This document shows, in pieces, positions 1 through 6,861 of a stretch of 37,993 bases of DNA. The DNA is from Acidimicrobiales bacterium. GTDB lineage: Bacteria; Actinomycetota; Acidimicrobiia; Acidimicrobiales; AC-14. A model generated the notes under the pieces. It did not search any database, was not told the origin of the DNA, and saw only the letters and a list, made by a program, of their open reading frames with translations. The DNA is taken from positions 1 to 37,993 of the forward strand of contig JAODBK010000020.1 in the NCBI GenBank assembly GCA_025463925.1. Direction: 5' to 3'. Within the stretch, counting starts at the first letter, position 1. Each line of letters begins with the position of its first letter. The position numbers were made by a program, and so were the translations under genes.

Positions 1-618
1 CGACGACTCCGGCGCGGGCGGCGCGACGACCGGCGCGACCGGCGCGTCGAGGGTGTTGGTGTCCGGCAGCGGCACCGCCACGCGGAACGGCACCGGGCCC
101 TGCGGCAACAGCACGACGTCGTACGACGTCGGGTCCGGCTGGAACGATGGCCCGAGCTTCCACGCCATCGCGTCGCCGGCCGCCGACGCGATCCCCTTCA
201 CCCCGCCGCCGGCTCGCGCGCAGTCCGCTTTCGGTTGCGCGTCCCAACCACCGCCGGTCGCGGGGTTCCACGTGCCGGTGATCGGGCACGCGAGGATCGC
301 CGCCGTGGCGTACGTCGAGCCGGTGGCGGCCTTGAGGGTCAGCGTGGCGTCGCCGGCGCCGGTGCCGTTGAAGTGCAGCGCCGACACCGCCGCCGGGCCA
401 GCGGGACCGGCCGCGAGGTAGAGGCCGCCCGGCGGGGCGTCCGGCGGGACCGGCGCGGTGTCGCCGAGCGGCGGGGTGTTGAGCTCGTACCACCACCCGA
501 AGTACGTGGGGCCGGTCGGCGCGGTGTCGGCGACCGCCGGGGCCGCCGGCGCCGCCGCCAACGCGATCGCGGCGGCGAGAAAGAAGCCCGACGCCCGGCG
601 CGCCGACCGCCGGTTCAT
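1..618 (-). CDS. Secreted protein of unknown function, cut by the left window edge
   Basis: Open from the ATG at 618 to the window edge with no stop, so at least 206 codons; the C-terminus is missing. The N-terminus is a classic signal peptide: Arg-rich (MNRRSARRAS), then an Ala/Leu/Phe core, with probable cleavage near AVA-D at about residues 27-30. The mature part opens with a Trp/Tyr-rich stretch (YFGWWYEL), has Pro-rich linkers and a Gly/Thr/Ala-rich beta-type composition, and contains a pair of Cys about 25 residues apart. I do not recognise the family. The ATG overlaps the stop of the upstream ATPase gene by ATGA, so it is almost certainly translated as the last visible gene of the ABC uptake operon. 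A cell-surface role linked to that transporter is inference from position alone. Confidence 0.75.
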   Translation of the reverse strand, partial: MNRRSARRASGFFLAAAIALAAAPAAPAVADTAPTGPTYFGWWYELNTPPLGDTAPVPPDAPPGGLYLAAGPAGPAAVSALHFNGTGAGDATLTLKAATGSTYATAAILACPITGTWNPATGGGWDAQPKADCARAGGGVKGIASAAGDAMAWKLGPSFQPDPTSYDVVLLPQGPVPFRVAVPLPDTNTLDAPVAPVVAPPAPESS

Positions 619-2255
619 GCCCGCGTCGCCCGCAGCGGGCGCGGGCGCGACGGCTGGCGCGTCGCCGCTTCCTTGCTGCTGCCCGAGCGGTGGATGACGT
701 CGATGTCGCCGCCGAGATACGCCGAGATCACCCGCGGGTCCGAGAGCACGTCACCGGGCGCGCCGCGCGTGACGACCGCGCCGAGCTCGAGGGCGATGAT
801 CTCGTCGGAGACGCTCGTGATCAGCGGCATGTCGTGCTCGATCACGAGCATCGCGCACCCGGTCTCGCGCTGGATCCGCCGCAGCAGCGGGCCGAGCGCC
901 TCGGTCTCGCGTTGCGCGATGCCGGAGCTGGGCTCGTCGAGGATGAGCACCGTCGGGTCGTGGGCGATGGCCATCGCCAGGTCCACGATGCGCCGGCTGC
1001 CGGTCGACAGCTCGGCCACGAACTTGTCGCGGAACGCGCCCAGGTTCATCAGTTCGATGAGGTCCTCGACGGTGAAGGCGACGTCCTCCTCCGACTCCTG
1101 GGCCGCTGGGAGGTTCAGCAGCGCGGCGATGTGGTCGCGCACCTCGATGTGCCGCTCGAGTCCGATGGCGACGTTCTCGGCCACCGTCATCGACGGGAAG
1201 ATGCGGGCGTCCTGGAACGAGCGGCCCAGACCCAGCGCGGCCCGCTTGGGCGCGCTCATGTCGGTGACGTCGACGCCGCGGAAGTCGATCCGGCCACGGT
1301 CGAGCGGGAGGTGGCCCGAGAGCAGGTCGAAGATCGTCGTCTTGCCGGCGCCGTTGGGCCCGATCAGGCCGAGGATCTGGCCGGGGTCGAGGGTGAACGA
1401 GACGTCGTCGACCGCGGTGATGCCGCCGAACCGCTTGGTGAGGCCGTCGACGGCGAGGATCGGGCCGCCACCCTCGTCCTTGGCCAGCACCGGCGCGGCC
1501 GACGCCTTGCTGTCCATGCTGGTGCCGCCGGCCGCGCCCTCGAGGAACACCGACCGCAGGATGTCGCCCCGCTCGAGCAACTCCTCGGTGGGGCCCGAGA
1601 ACCGCACCTCGCCCTTCTCCATGAAGTAGGCCCGGCTGGCGACGGTGAGGGCCACGTTCACCGACTGCTCCACGAGGATGATCGTGCAACCCTGGTCGTG
1701 GATCTTGCGGACGATCTCGAGCAGCTTCTCGACGACGGTCGGTGCCAGACCGAGCGACAGCTCGTCGATGATCAGCAGCTTCGGCTGGGCGACGAAGGCC
1801 ATGCCGAGCGCGAGCTGCTGCTGCTCTCCGCCCGACATGTTGCCGGCCATCTGATCCCACCGCTCGCGCAGCCGCGGGAACCGCTCGAGCACCTCCTGAA
1901 CCCGCGCGTCGACGTCCGCCGGGTCCTCCTTGGCGAACATCCACGTGCCGGCCTTGAAGTGCTCGGCGACGGTGAGCGTCGGGAACACCGCCTTGCCGCC
2001 GGGGACCTGCACGATGCCCATCCGCGCCGACTTGACCGCGCTGGTGTGGGTGATGTCCTGGCCGTCGAAGACGATCTGCCCGCCGATCGGGTCGACCAGC
2101 CCGGAGATCGCCTTCAACAGCGTCGACTTCCCGGCGCCGTTGGTGCCGAGCAGGGCCACGATCTCGCCGTCGGCCACCTCCATGTCCACGCCGAAGAGGA
2201 TCTGCACCGGGCCGTAGGCCACCTCGACCGCGCGGCATTCCAGCATCGGCGTCAT
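615..2255 (-). CDS. Fused LivF-LivG ABC transporter ATPase (two NBDs in one chain)
   Basis: 546 residues carrying two complete nucleotide-binding domains of the branched-chain amino acid (HAAT) family, which is normally two genes. NBD1 (about 1-240) is LivF-like: Walker A GTNGAGKST at 37-45, signature SGGEQ at 141-145, Walker B LLIIDE ending at E165 (followed by Leu where Pro is usual), then SLGLAP. A linker of about 25 residues (241-265) leads to NBD2 (about 266-520), LivG-like: Walker A GPNGAGKTT at 299-307, Walker B LILDEP around D440-E441, H-loop VIEHD. NBD2 has LSTGS at 416-420 instead of LSGGQ. The C-terminal 25 residues are Arg/Ser/Pro-rich. The start at 2255 overlaps the permease stop by ATGA. 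An internal ATG at 1517 in the linker could start a separate LivG, but no stop separates the two halves. The substrate cannot be read from the ATPase. Confidence 0.93.
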   Translation of the reverse strand: MTPMLECRAVEVAYGPVQILFGVDMEVADGEIVALLGTNGAGKSTLLKAISGLVDPIGGQIVFDGQDITHTSAVKSARMGIVQVPGGKAVFPTLTVAEHFKAGTWMFAKEDPADVDARVQEVLERFPRLRERWDQMAGNMSGGEQQQLALGMAFVAQPKLLIIDELSLGLAPTVVEKLLEIVRKIHDQGCTIILVEQSVNVALTVASRAYFMEKGEVRFSGPTEELLERGDILRSVFLEGAAGGTSMDSKASAAPVLAKDEGGGPILAVDGLTKRFGGITAVDDVSFTLDPGQILGLIGPNGAGKTTIFDLLSGHLPLDRGRIDFRGVDVTDMSAPKRAALGLGRSFQDARIFPSMTVAENVAIGLERHIEVRDHIAALLNLPAAQESEEDVAFTVEDLIELMNLGAFRDKFVAELSTGSRRIVDLAMAIAHDPTVLILDEPSSGIAQRETEALGPLLRRIQRETGCAMLVIEHDMPLITSVSDEIIALELGAVVTRGAPGDVLSDPRVISAYLGGDIDVIHRSGSSKEAATRQPSRPRPLRATRA

Positions 2256-4534
2256 GTCGGCGCGCCGACGCGGAGGTGCTCGTGGTCGGCAGCCGCATCG
2301 AGGCTGAGGTGCTCGCCGCACACCGGGCAGACGATCGAGCGCTCGGCGACGACGTCGAAGCTGTCGACCTCCTCGACGCGGTGCTCGGCCTGGATCACCA
2401 CATCCCGCTCGGCCTGGGTCTCGACCCGGCGATCGGCGACGAGCGACGGCACGTTGATCGCGTGCTTCATCGCGACGCGGCGGAGGAACCAGTCGCGTAT
2501 GCGGTACATGCCCTCGGCGAAGCCGCCCGGCAGGAACAGCAGCACCAGCAGCAGCCCCGGCCCGGTGGTGAGCAACGACAGGTTCTTGACCCCGGTGAAG
2601 TCCTCCCCGAAGAAACGGATGCACTCGAGCAGGACGGTGCCGAAGATCGCACCGGACAACGACGTGAGCCCACCGATCACCACGATCAGGAAGATGCTGA
2701 TGCTCTTGTCGATGCCGTACGTCGCCGGGTCCACCGCGCCGCTCTGGTACGCCAGGAGCACCCCGGCCAGCCCGGCGATCGCACCCGACACCGCGAACGC
2801 CGCCAACTTGGTGCGGATCGGGTCCACGCTGTACGAGGACGCGGCCCGCACGTTGTCCCGCACCGCCATCACCGCTCGCCCGGCCCGGTTGCGGCGATAG
2901 GCGCGCGCCATCAGCACCGCGGCGCCGAGGAAGGCCAGGCACACGTAGTAGTAGGCGCGGGCCGGGCCGAGGTCGCTGCCCAGCTTGATGCGCTGCCAGA
3001 GGACCGGCGTCCTGATCTGGCTGTAGGTCGCCGGGGCGAGCGCGCGACTGATCGCGTAGCTGCGATCCAAGAGGACGTACTGCACGAAAGCTCCGAGCGC
3101 GAGGGTCGTCACCGCGAGGTACAAGCCCGGCAGTCGCAGCGCCGGCAGTCCGATCAGCACCGCCGCGAGCGCACCGGCCAGCACGCCGGCGCCGACGGCC
3201 ACGAAGAAGTCGACGTTGTGGCCGGCGGCCAGCTTGCCGCCGATCGCGGCGCCGACGCCGACGATGGCGAACTGCCCGAGGCTGATCTGCCCGGCCCAGC
3301 CGGTGAGCATCACCAGCGACACCGCGACGATGCACTCGATGATGACCAGCTCGGTGAACCCGACGCGGTTGTTGCCGACGATGTACGGGAAGCCGAGGAA
3401 GAACGCGGCCACGACAACCGCGACCGTGCCGCGGAACCATCGGACCTCGCGCACGTCGCGCAGCTCGTGGGGCACCGGCCGGAACTCCTTGACCGCCTGC
3501 CACGACGACACGCCAGTGTCATAGGCCCGCGACCGGCGGCCCCGCTGCAACAGCAGCGCGGCGAGGATCACGACGAGCATGTACGCGTTGGCCAGCGAGT
3601 CCTTGCCGGTCTTCACCAACGTCGCCTCGGCGATGATGCCGATGGCGACACCGGCGACCAGCGCGGTGCCGATGTTCTCCATCTTGGCGATCACCGCCGC
3701 CGCCAACACGAAGATGAGCACCTTGAAGCCGAGTGACCCGTCGGTCGGCACGCCGACAACGGACGCCCGCAGGAAGATCGCCAGCGACGCCAGCAGCCCG
3801 GCGATCATCCACGCCACCGTCTGCACCTGCGCGACCGGGATCCCCAGCAACGACGCTCGGTCGGCGTTCTCGGCCGATGCCCGCAGGGCGATGCCGATGC
3901 GGGTGTAGCGGAGGAATGCCGCCAGCAACGTCACCACGACGAGGATGACGACGACCGCGAAGAGGTAGTCGTAGCTGAAGCGCTCGTTGCCGATCCGGAA
4001 GTGGTGGGTGCTGAACGGGGTCTGGAGGGCGGCGACGTTCTTGCCCTTGCTGCCCATCCAGATCGGGATGTAGACGCCGATGTAGGCGAGGATCTGCGAG
4101 ATGCCGATCGTCGCCACGGTCAGGATGAGCCGCGGCGCGTTGGCGAACCTGCGGATGACCGCGAACTCCACCACCGCGCCGAGCACCACACCCATGACGA
4201 GGCAGAGCGGGAACGCGACGTACCACGACCAGTGCCGGAAGTTGATGAGCAGCGCGCAGAAGATCCCCGGCACCGCGCCCAGACCGGCGCACGCGAAGTT
4301 CACGATCCGGTTGGTGCGGTAGATGAGGATGACGCCGACCGCGATCAGGCCGTAGAGCGCGCCGGTGACCGCGCCGTTGAAGAACGAGCCGATCGGCGGG
4401 TTGAGGTAGGCCTGGACCGCGACGCAGAAGGCAACCGCGCCGACGACCCACATGCCGGCCCGGCGCGCCGCGTCGGTCGCACGGTTCCCGGTCGGCGCGG
4501 CCAGCTTCTGGACCCGCTCGAGCACGCTCGTCAT
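2252..4534 (-). CDS. Fused LivH-LivM ABC permease with C-terminal Cys/His tail
   Basis: 760 residues. The N-terminal half (about 35-345) is LivH-like (FFNGAVTGALYGLIAVG, then YRTNRIVNFA); the second half (about 370-690) is LivM-like (LTGWAGQISLGQFAIVG). Together they give a complete membrane domain with many hydrophobic helices, so one polypeptide replaces the usual heterodimer. After the last helix comes a cytosolic extension of about 75 residues, acidic and charged, ending in CPVCGEHLSLDAAADHEH (C736, C739, H751, H753), which resembles a small zinc-binding module and is not part of LivM. Gene overlaps are ATGA on both sides (4534-4531 with the binding protein, 2255-2252 with the ATPase), so the stoichiometry is probably set by translational coupling. 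The family transports branched-chain amino acids, amides, urea or aromatic acids; which one here is unknown. Confidence 0.93.
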   Translation of the reverse strand: MTSVLERVQKLAAPTGNRATDAARRAGMWVVGAVAFCVAVQAYLNPPIGSFFNGAVTGALYGLIAVGVILIYRTNRIVNFACAGLGAVPGIFCALLINFRHWSWYVAFPLCLVMGVVLGAVVEFAVIRRFANAPRLILTVATIGISQILAYIGVYIPIWMGSKGKNVAALQTPFSTHHFRIGNERFSYDYLFAVVVILVVVTLLAAFLRYTRIGIALRASAENADRASLLGIPVAQVQTVAWMIAGLLASLAIFLRASVVGVPTDGSLGFKVLIFVLAAAVIAKMENIGTALVAGVAIGIIAEATLVKTGKDSLANAYMLVVILAALLLQRGRRSRAYDTGVSSWQAVKEFRPVPHELRDVREVRWFRGTVAVVVAAFFLGFPYIVGNNRVGFTELVIIECIVAVSLVMLTGWAGQISLGQFAIVGVGAAIGGKLAAGHNVDFFVAVGAGVLAGALAAVLIGLPALRLPGLYLAVTTLALGAFVQYVLLDRSYAISRALAPATYSQIRTPVLWQRIKLGSDLGPARAYYYVCLAFLGAAVLMARAYRRNRAGRAVMAVRDNVRAASSYSVDPIRTKLAAFAVSGAIAGLAGVLLAYQSGAVDPATYGIDKSISIFLIVVIGGLTSLSGAIFGTVLLECIRFFGEDFTGVKNLSLLTTGPGLLLVLLFLPGGFAEGMYRIRDWFLRRVAMKHAINVPSLVADRRVETQAERDVVIQAEHRVEEVDSFDVVAERSIVCPVCGEHLSLDAAADHEHLRVGAPT

Positions 4535-6279
4535 CGCGGCTTGGGTGGCAGCGCGATCAGGCCGGATGGGTACTGGCCGACGCCGTACCAGTGACCGCCG
4601 TCCAGTGACATGTACCGCCCGGGCACACCATCATGGGGCGACGGCCGGGCCGGGCTGAAGTAGATCTCGCGGTACGTGTCGTTCCACGTGTAGTCGCCTG
4701 GGCCGAGGCCGCGGGTGCCGAACAGCGGTCCGGTGTTGTTGGTCGGCGACAGCTTGCCGATGCCCTGCGCGCCGGCCTGCACGTCCTGGGGCGTCAGGTG
4801 CGGGCCGGCCGCCTGGATCAGCGTGGCGATCATGGCGTAGTAGTCGAAGTCGTTCGAGGCCGAGCTGTACGGCGCCGCCCCGGCGTTGCCGGCGGACTGC
4901 CAGACCCGCGCCGCTTGATCCGACGCCGCCGGCTCCATCTGCGGGTCCTGGGCCAGGCCGAACGCGTTCTCGAACTCGGGGTACTGGTTCTTGGCCGTCA
5001 GTGGGGCCAGGTCGTGGTCGTACGAGTGCGTCGACGTGTCGTCGTCCATGTTTCCGGTGCCGACCATCACGTGCTCGGGGTAGTAGTTCTGGTCCCGGCA
5101 CTGCTGGTAGAGGAACAGCGGCGCGACCTGGTCGCAGAAGCACATGATGCTGGTGGCGATCGGGCCCTTGCGCATCTCGGCCACTGCGGCTCGACGCTGC
5201 GAGTCGGCGGTGGTGATGTCCTGCGCGTAGTAGTACTCGTGGGTCACGCCGGCACCGCACTTGGCGAGCTCGCGCTTCAGCAGCGAGATCGTCGCCTTGT
5301 TCTCCGGGTCGTCGGTGCTCAGCACGCCGAGCACCCGCTTGCTCCCGGCCATCGACTTGCCGTTGCCGTCCTGCCCGGCGTACACCGCGTTGCCGCCGTT
5401 CATCCGCTTGCACCACCACTCGCCGACCTCGGCGGCCATCTTGTCGCCGTCCATGAGCACGTCCCAGTGGTACGGCGCGTGGGCCTGGTTGAACGCGTTG
5501 GTGAAGCCGAACCCGCCGATGTTCACGACCTTGAGCCTGCTCAGCTCGTCATAGGTCTCCGACGACACCGGGTTGTTCCAGAGCACCGCGAACGGGTTCT
5601 CCTGGCCGACCATCGTGCGCATCTCGTTGCGGAGGCAGCTGTTGTCCGGCGGGCCCTGGCCGCCGGTGCCGCAGGAGATCTGGTACTGCTTGAACACGAT
5701 CTTGCGGCCGTAGAGCTCGTAGTGGTCGTTGATGTACTTCTGCGCGGCGCCGAGGAACTGGTCGAACTGCTGGTGGCTCGGCAGCGCGCCCTGGGCGGTG
5801 AGGATGGCGTTGACCGCCTGGCCGTAGTTGCCCCGCATGTAGACAACCTTGATGGTGTCCTTGGTGACCCCGCGGTACGTCGCGCCGCCGTTGTCGCCGG
5901 TGAACTTCGGGACGCACGCCGGCGCCCAGCCGTACACCTTCGGGTCGAACTGACGGCCGCCGACGCAGTGGCTGGTGTCGCCCTTGGCGGTGACGCCCGG
6001 CGGCAGCGCGCCATTTCCGCCCGCGGTGCCGCTCGTCGACCCCGCGCCGGTGGACCCACCCGCCCCGGTGTCGACAGTCGCGCCCGGTGTCGTGTCGCCG
6101 GTGGTGCCGTTGTCGACGCCGTTCACCGAGCTCCCGCCACCCGCGCCGGCGCCGCGTCCGGTCGCGGCCGACACCAGCTGGCCGGGTGCCGTCGACGGCA
6201 CCACGGCGATGATGAACAGCTGGACGGCCAGGACAGCGGCCAGCGGCAGATACCGCTTCGCCAAGGTCGTGCGATTCAT
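4531..6279 (-). CDS. Periplasmic-binding-protein-like (type 1) substrate-binding protein of HAAT ABC system
   Basis: 582 residues from the ATG at 6279, chosen because AGGGGAG lies about 12 nt upstream; the in-frame TTG at 6291 abuts that motif and is a worse start. An N-terminal hydrophobic segment (about 9-32) acts as signal peptide or membrane anchor. There is no lipobox Cys, so unlike most Gram-positive binding proteins it is not a lipoprotein. A low-complexity Gly/Ser/Thr-rich linker follows (about 37-95), then the binding-protein domain with motifs of the Peripla_BP_6 group (IKVVYMRGNYGQAVN, NPFAVLWNNPVSSETY, VLGVLSTDDPENK). Several Cys suggest extracytoplasmic disulfides. It is the first gene of the operon with the fused permease and fused ATPase. 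The ligand is unknown; the domain is longer than a simple leucine-binding LivK. Confidence 0.88.
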   Translation of the reverse strand: MNRTTLAKRYLPLAAVLAVQLFIIAVVPSTAPGQLVSAATGRGAGAGGGSSVNGVDNGTTGDTTPGATVDTGAGGSTGAGSTSGTAGGNGALPPGVTAKGDTSHCVGGRQFDPKVYGWAPACVPKFTGDNGGATYRGVTKDTIKVVYMRGNYGQAVNAILTAQGALPSHQQFDQFLGAAQKYINDHYELYGRKIVFKQYQISCGTGGQGPPDNSCLRNEMRTMVGQENPFAVLWNNPVSSETYDELSRLKVVNIGGFGFTNAFNQAHAPYHWDVLMDGDKMAAEVGEWWCKRMNGGNAVYAGQDGNGKSMAGSKRVLGVLSTDDPENKATISLLKRELAKCGAGVTHEYYYAQDITTADSQRRAAVAEMRKGPIATSIMCFCDQVAPLFLYQQCRDQNYYPEHVMVGTGNMDDDTSTHSYDHDLAPLTAKNQYPEFENAFGLAQDPQMEPAASDQAARVWQSAGNAGAAPYSSASNDFDYYAMIATLIQAAGPHLTPQDVQAGAQGIGKLSPTNNTGPLFGTRGLGPGDYTWNDTYREIYFSPARPSPHDGVPGRYMSLDGGHWYGVGQYPSGLIALPPKPR

Positions 6280-6336
6280 GCGCTCGGACAACTCCCCTGC
6301 CGACGGCTCGGCCGTCCATCGGTCGCGCGGGCCACG

Positions 6337-6350
6337 GTGACACCCGTCAC
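6337..6350. promoter_or_regulatory. Crp/Fnr-like palindrome GTGA-N6-TCAC
   Basis: GTGACACCCGTCAC is a perfect 5-bp inverted repeat (GTGAC-ACCC-GTCAC) that also fits the GTGA-N6-TCAC core of Crp-family sites. It lies in the divergent intergenic region, 57 bp upstream of the binding-protein ATG and about 67 bp upstream of the SCP2 -10 candidate. Assignment to a cAMP-receptor-like regulator is by pattern only. Confidence 0.4.
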
Positions 6351-6392
6351 TCGGGGTGAACTACGACGCCGGGGCCACGAGTCCCTGCCCAG

Positions 6393-6422
6393 TGGGACCA
6401 CCTGGTTACCGACGGGTAGGGT
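6393..6422 (+). promoter_or_regulatory. Candidate promoter of the SCP2-like gene
   Basis: A TAGGGT hexamer (6417-6422) is preceded 18 bp upstream by TGGGAC (6393-6398). This spacing would place transcription start near 6429, giving a short leader with the GAGGGAG ribosome-binding site at about 6440-6446. It is one of the few leadered starts in the window. Confidence 0.45.
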
Positions 6423-6453
6423 GCGGCCGTTCCGTGAGCGAGGGAGCACGAGC

Positions 6454-6861
6454 GTGGCGAAGCATCCGTTCCTGTCCGACGAGTGGCTGTCCGAGGCCCA
6501 CAAGGTGCGCGAGGAGTTCGCCGGCCAGGGCGGCCCGCCCCCGCACAACATCCGGATGAACCTCAACATCACCGAGGTGCCGTTCGGTGAGGGCATGAAG
6601 GAAGCCCACATGGACACCAGCAGCGGCGAGCTGCAGATGGACACCGGTCACATCGACACGCCCGACCTCACCGTCACGATCGACTACGAGACCGCCAAGG
6701 CGATCTTCGTCGAGGGCAACCCGCAGGCCGGCATGCAGGCCTTCATGGCCGGCAAGATCAAGGTGCAGGGCGACATGACCAAGCTCATGGCGATGCAGGC
6801 CGCGGCTCCCGATCCCACCTCGCTGGCCGTCGCGGCCCGCATCAAGGAGATCACGGAGTAG
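6454..6861 (+). CDS. SCP2 sterol-binding-fold protein
   Basis: 135 residues from a GTG at 6454, with GAGGGAG ending 7 nt upstream as ribosome-binding site. The C-terminal half carries the sterol-carrier-protein-2 pattern: LTVTIDYETAKAIFVEGNPQAGMQAFMAGKIKVQGDMTKLM, split here as LTVTIDYETAKAIF, an acidic turn, then AFMAGKIKVQGDMTKL. SCP2 domains bind lipids, acyl-CoA or sterols in the cytoplasm; single-domain forms like this are common in actinobacteria next to lipid metabolism genes. There is no signal peptide or membrane segment. It is transcribed alone, diverging from the ABC operon and converging on the GNAT gene. The ligand is not deducible. Confidence 0.88.
   Translation: MAKHPFLSDEWLSEAHKVREEFAGQGGPPPHNIRMNLNITEVPFGEGMKEAHMDTSSGELQMDTGHIDTPDLTVTIDYETAKAIFVEGNPQAGMQAFMAGKIKVQGDMTKLMAMQAAAPDPTSLAVAARIKEITE

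Follow-up and report, generated by a model that had tools for sequence, protein, structure and literature searches.

LivHMFG-type importers are commonly presented as a bare permease together with an ATPase. In the window considered here (the whole analysed stretch of 37,993 nucleotides, contig JAODBK010000020.1 of an Acidimicrobiales bacterium, assembly GCA_025463925.1), the permease of such an importer ends close to a cluster of two cysteines and two histidines, raising the question of whether these residues form a genuine module and, if so, what that module would do at the end of a membrane protein. Among the titles and abstract openings listed for the open-access literature, none described an ABC or LivHM permease that bears a zinc finger. 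The first-pass annotation had proposed a small Cys2His2 module with a loose likeness to UBZ fingers, and had set conservation among orthologues beforehand as the test by which that proposal could fail. Judged by comparison of homologous sequences, the tail finger is real and conserved: a LivHM permease here bears a Cys2His2 site whose H-x-H end is unusual.

The importer and its neighbours

The permease gene occupies 2252..4534 on the minus strand and encodes a LivH-LivM fusion of 760 amino acids with two BPD_transp_2 stretches (E 4.8e-56); the corresponding Pfam family, PF02653, exceeds its cut-off in both halves, at 190.3 bits for the whole protein against 26.8. The halves fit LivH/UrtB and LivM/UrtC as in the LivHMFG and UrtBCDE systems (importers of the branched-chain amino acid type and of the urea type), with the LivH, LivM, UrtB, and UrtC models hitting the protein below their own cut-offs (those for LivH and LivM are equivalog or subfamily models). 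The next gene, at 615..2255 on the same strand, carries two Walker A motifs in a single frame, starts with an ATG at −4 that overlaps the permease stop (ATGA), and is fitted by the UrtE/LivF and UrtD/LivG models, one in each half. Going by PF02653 and this adjoining LivF/LivG-type ATPase, the protein of 2252–4534 is classed as a LivHM-type permease, and since LivF and LivG share one open frame, the importer core consists of two polypeptides, LivHM and LivFG. The system thus differs from LivHMFG and UrtBCDE in both fusions, as well as in a finger tail that is absent from the LivM model.

Directly upstream of the permease, a frame of 586 amino acids (4531..6291, minus strand) is likely a LivK-type substrate-binding protein by its position and the look of its sequence, a name we infer because NCBIfam gave no match at E 0.01. 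On the opposite strand, the end of an open reading frame at 4633-6861 (about 6340-6861) resembles, by eye only, a small SCP2 sterol-carrier-type protein. Matches to the permease occur at 34 places in the window's own 4.08-Mb genome, which amounts to a large expansion of LivHM-type importers.

The C-terminal tail and its finger

The match of the NCBI LivM model (418 positions) to the permease ends at residue 672, and the remaining tail is therefore an extension beyond LivM, as had been proposed from the first reading. Past the final predicted long helix, the alignments reveal a conserved VPSLVAD segment (residues 695-701; 2432..2452, minus strand), followed by a tether (residues 702-735; 2330..2431, minus strand) that comprises a low-confidence helix at 707-722 and an acidic linker, variable in length among homologues and with pLDDT <50. 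The finger core, CPVCGEHLSLDAAADHEH, runs from C736 to H753 (2276..2329, minus strand), and a direct read of codons 736-753 places the ligands exactly where the first-pass annotation had put them, in the layout C736-P-V-C739-x11-H751-E-H753. A further histidine, H742, was considered as a ligand and rejected because it is unconserved, the position at +6 from the first Cys being V in 7, H in 5, and E in 5 of 25 finger-bearing homologues, with other residues in the rest.

Conservation among homologues

Homologous permeases that reach the C-terminal part formed a pool of 112 distinct sequences, after 42 that were too short, 23 duplicates, and one with unknown residues had been dropped. Of these, 60 lack a CxxC in the tail, 26 unfused ones have it, 25 run into a fused nucleotide-binding domain, and one is cut off. 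In 25 of the 26 unfused homologues that show any CxxC there, the pattern C-P-x-C-x11-H-x-H-[LF] recurs at identical spacing. We regard this as the fairer count, because sequences in our alignments A1-A4 were picked for bearing the motif and their invariance is thus partly by construction. Within the first 60 genomes, among the matches listed, ten besides the window reach query residue 754 or beyond, and all ten tails carry the motif. The conservation set in advance as the decisive test has thus held, and with all four ligands kept in orthologues, sequence comparison supports a small module of the general Cys2His2 type.

Beyond the ligands, the 25 finger sequences share the consensus [ILVY]-x-C-P-x-C-x3-[LVMI]-x7-H-[EDPA]-H-[LF], in which the hydrophobic positions −2, +7, and +18 are conserved throughout (25/25), and all 25 carry [VA][PA]SL[VLI]AD upstream. 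What surrounds the finger is much freer, with 29-56 residues of linker between VPSLVAD and the first Cys and 6-50 residues between the last His and the C-terminus. Synonymous codons alternate at the five invariant positions, in most cases the GC-rich one and a single alternative. In five homologues (L110, L112, L114, L119, and L128) the finger is succeeded by a basic stretch rich in Arg and Ala, which the window's permease lacks. The sole exception to the spacing, L002 (G000:C26), is a paralogue from the window's own genome in which the Cys pair is present and the His pair absent, with the end CPSCGEPLAVAAAVTP; from its sequence, it is a candidate for a decaying finger.

Related knuckles were also found in other proteins. 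Another protein of the order (L088, L089, and L091) carries CPxC-x11-H-x-G followed by more Cys and His, agreeing at three of the four ligand positions, and such a knuckle is therefore not confined to permeases. Other weak matches were rejected as the same finger, namely L090 and L092 (CPWC-x12-H-x-H), L104 (C-x2-C-x11-H-x3-H), L215 (a different Cys pattern), L093 (CPHC with no His pair), and L216 (no such pattern). The exact motif is absent from every one of the weak extra matches of the order profile that were read (L088-L093, L104, L215, and L216).

Occurrence and history

Tail-profile searches covered overlapping samples of the order, class, and phylum, with up to 17, 23, and 14 candidates per genome scored, respectively. 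In the order, at least 22 places in at least 15 of 298 genomes, representing 12 family codes, fit the profile to the finger end and all carry the motif on reading, while a 23rd full-length match (G005:C326) lacks the finger. In the class sample (247 genomes), the finger was found, among the matches listed, only in the window's genome and one other (G023), both within the order; of the class matches from outside the order that were taken up as loci (L190-L199), nine tails were inspected and none has the finger, and the remaining matches cover the linker only. The phylum sample (396 genomes) added two carriers outside the class, G490 and G504, among the matches listed. Finger-bearing named records are metagenome-assembled genomes labelled Actinomycetota, Acidimicrobiaceae, Frankiaceae, Frankiales, and, in one case, Chloroflexi.

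The finger is nonetheless dispensable, to judge from the 60 of 112 homologues that have no tail CxxC, including the nearest homologue (62% identity). Its distribution is patchy: a tree built from the core of the permease (112 sequences, tail excluded) requires 13 changes of finger state, and a single clade of fingered sequences was rejected (AU p 6.8e-5). With midpoint rooting, the tree admits one gain and 18 losses, or 17 gains and no loss, and both an early gain with many losses and several gains are possible histories. Where sequence was available, no remnant of a finger was found within 400 bases past the stops of fingerless genes, only four chance CPxC without the His pair.

Predicted structure and comparison with known modules

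AlphaFold2 modelling of the tail alone (22 sequences) gave a mean pLDDT of 66, with values of 75-88 in the 10-residue blocks that cover the finger. For the full-length protein the mean pLDDT was 79 (pTM 0.78), with 73-79 in the finger blocks, 61 in the final block (where both His lie), and less than 50 in the linker over 701-713 and 715-730. The full model places strands at 733-735 and 742-744 and a helix at 745-749, so that H751 and H753 are predicted to lie after the helix end. Histidines two residues apart can face the same side in an extended turn, not in a helix. Fold searches with the tail model returned no significant match (Foldseek, best E 1.0; VIA-align, none at Z 2), and the full model had one match under E 0.001, FhuB of FhuCDB (6.7e-5). 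Compared with PDB sequences, the tail profile found mainly zinc proteins among its better matches, led by the Aart zinc-finger protein at 4.3e-5, in which no individual stretch reached significance, and by a LysW-type lysine-biosynthesis protein at 2.1e-4.

No Pfam model scored above its cut-off on any of 19 finger tails searched singly. The Pfam family hit by more tails than any other was zf_UBZ, found with 6 of 12 (best E 4e-4); the scores seen were 14.9-20.4 bits over 18 finger tails taken singly, against a gathering cut-off of 25.6, and the window's own tail gave no match to it at E 10. Over the first three ligands the UBZ of WRNIP1 can be aligned gaplessly (E 0.13), and the likeness extends to the CPxC knuckle, the C-x2-C-x11-H in WRNIP1 register, and two strands followed by a helix. 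The fourth ligand differs. In the permease finger it is a His at H+2 and the H-x-H follows the predicted helix, whereas UBZ fingers, with CCHC or CCHH ligands, carry the last two on the same helix, the fourth being a Cys or a His farther on; the last ligands of the FAAP20 UBZ, H166 and C170, stand four apart on a single helix (PMC4267625). The UBZ likeness noted at first reading was thus recovered independently, while membership was rejected, and we do not file the finger as UBZ, given scores under the Pfam threshold and a fourth ligand that is out of place.

A Cys2His2 site that includes a beta-beta-alpha portion is known in bacteria from Ros/MucR proteins, the Ros ligands being C79, C82, H92, and H97 (PMC9779718). 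As described there, Ros is a DNA-binding regulator with the spacing C-x2-C-x9-H-x4-H, which the window does not share, its C-x2-C-x11-H-x-H being on a membrane permease. Among importers, MetNI and ModABC resemble the present case in having a cytosolic add-on near the ATPases; theirs, according to PMC10710835, is borne by the ATPase subunit and binds substrate, whereas here a metal-type finger sits on the permease.

Side of the membrane and link to the ATPase

An ATPase domain follows the permease in the same frame in 25 homologues, 13 of which keep a recognisable VPSL-type segment ([VA][PA]SL) at the junction. An ATPase domain is necessarily cytosolic, and since it follows in-frame at the same end, the tail likewise lies in the cytosol, close to the ATPases, in keeping with the cytosolic placement that the first-pass annotation had assigned to the extension. 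Among the 25 fused sequences are L146, L152, L153, L155, L169, and L175, with some frames exceeding 1400 amino acids, and these proteins are candidate single-chain importers by sequence. None of the 25 fused linkers carries the finger. A tail beside the ATPases together with finger-free fused linkers suggests a tethering or docking role, although the mutual exclusion of finger and fusion is no independent test because both cluster on the tree.

A downstream ATPase was readable in 23 of the 25 fingered cases, and in 17 of these 23 the two genes overlap, the ATPase start codon falling at −4 or −1 relative to the stop of the permease; in the other six (L116, L038, L140, L110, L113, and L118) about 1.3 kb more separates the two genes. 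Both arrangements, overlap and ~1.3-kb gap, also occur among fingerless homologues. Such a gap leaves room for an extra gene, and a fragment in L205 resembles by eye a major-facilitator transporter. Covariation between LivFG and the finger was assessed over 61 sequences (22 with the finger) and 531 columns. Raw Fisher p values reached down to 6.5e-7 across these columns; with phylogeny taken into account, none of the 30 most associated columns tracked the finger (lowest sign-test p 0.0625), in a test of low power because just 8-9 independent pairs were available in the columns with a stated number.

Weighing the explanations

That the motif is accidental, or that it is conserved through DNA signals near the LivF start, is scarcely credible. 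Most homologues do lack a finger (60 with none against 25 with), which would suit an accidental origin, but the pattern C..C.{11}H.H arose in only 2 of 100,000 residue-shuffled finger tails and the exact spacing recurs in 25 of 26, and a DNA-level cause was rejected given the 6-50 codons between finger and stop and the synonymous codons at all five invariant positions. A finger of UBZ kind that recognises bacterial proteins by a ubiquitin-like or Pup-like modifier attached to them would make sense of the zf_UBZ hits and the gapless WRNIP1 alignment; the sub-threshold scores and the His pair two apart after the predicted helix, against four apart on one helix in FAAP20, render it highly improbable.

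Two further explanations deserve more weight, and both appear unlikely. The thiols and His pair might form a metal or redox sensor, binding zinc reversibly, or oxidising and releasing it, and thereby switching the importer. The chemistry of two Cys and two His would suit such a role, the site lies beside the ATPases, and the logic would be that of the cytosolic regulatory domains of MetNI and ModABC as described in PMC10710835; those domains, however, sit on the ATPase and bind substrate, a second conserved metal or redox site was not found in the 25 finger sequences, and a Cys2His2 with CPxC looks in all of them like an ordinary structural site. Alternatively, the knot could act as a partnerless cap, shielding the C-terminus from proteolysis or aiding permease folding, as its nearness to the C-terminus and the repeated changes of finger state on the tree would allow. 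A flexible tether of 29-56 residues suits capping poorly, and invariant ligands with a conserved L/F after the last His (25/25) suggest more than a random plug.

We consider that the finger very probably binds zinc, and the reading that we prefer for the whole, with about even confidence, is a structural Zn(II) module acting as a knob onto which a cytosolic protein docks. The ligands stay fixed though the linker varies in length, and this was counted in favour of that reading. The finger would be an autonomous unit of ~20 residues on a flexible acidic tether, folded as two short predicted strands, a CPxC knuckle, and a short helix, with one structural Zn(II) held through C736, C739, H751, and H753, where a His pair spaced i,i+2 would fit an extended turn past the helix rather than the helix itself. 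It may then dock a cytosolic protein beside the ATPases, a step for which we see an even balance of probability. The first candidate partner would be the transporter's own LivF-LivG, the product of the overlapping next gene, and this assignment is tentative.

Conclusions

A bolder possibility, which we think improbable, is a previously undescribed docking switch gated by zinc or redox state. The metallated finger would hold LivFG or another cytosolic protein, and oxidised thiols or scarce zinc would release it, so that import would follow the metal or redox state; where permease and ATPase are fused, a finger would be superfluous, and its absence from all 25 fused homologues would thereby be accounted for. 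Finger-bearing, finger-free, and ATPase-fused relatives provide a natural comparison for how importers hold or control their ATPases.
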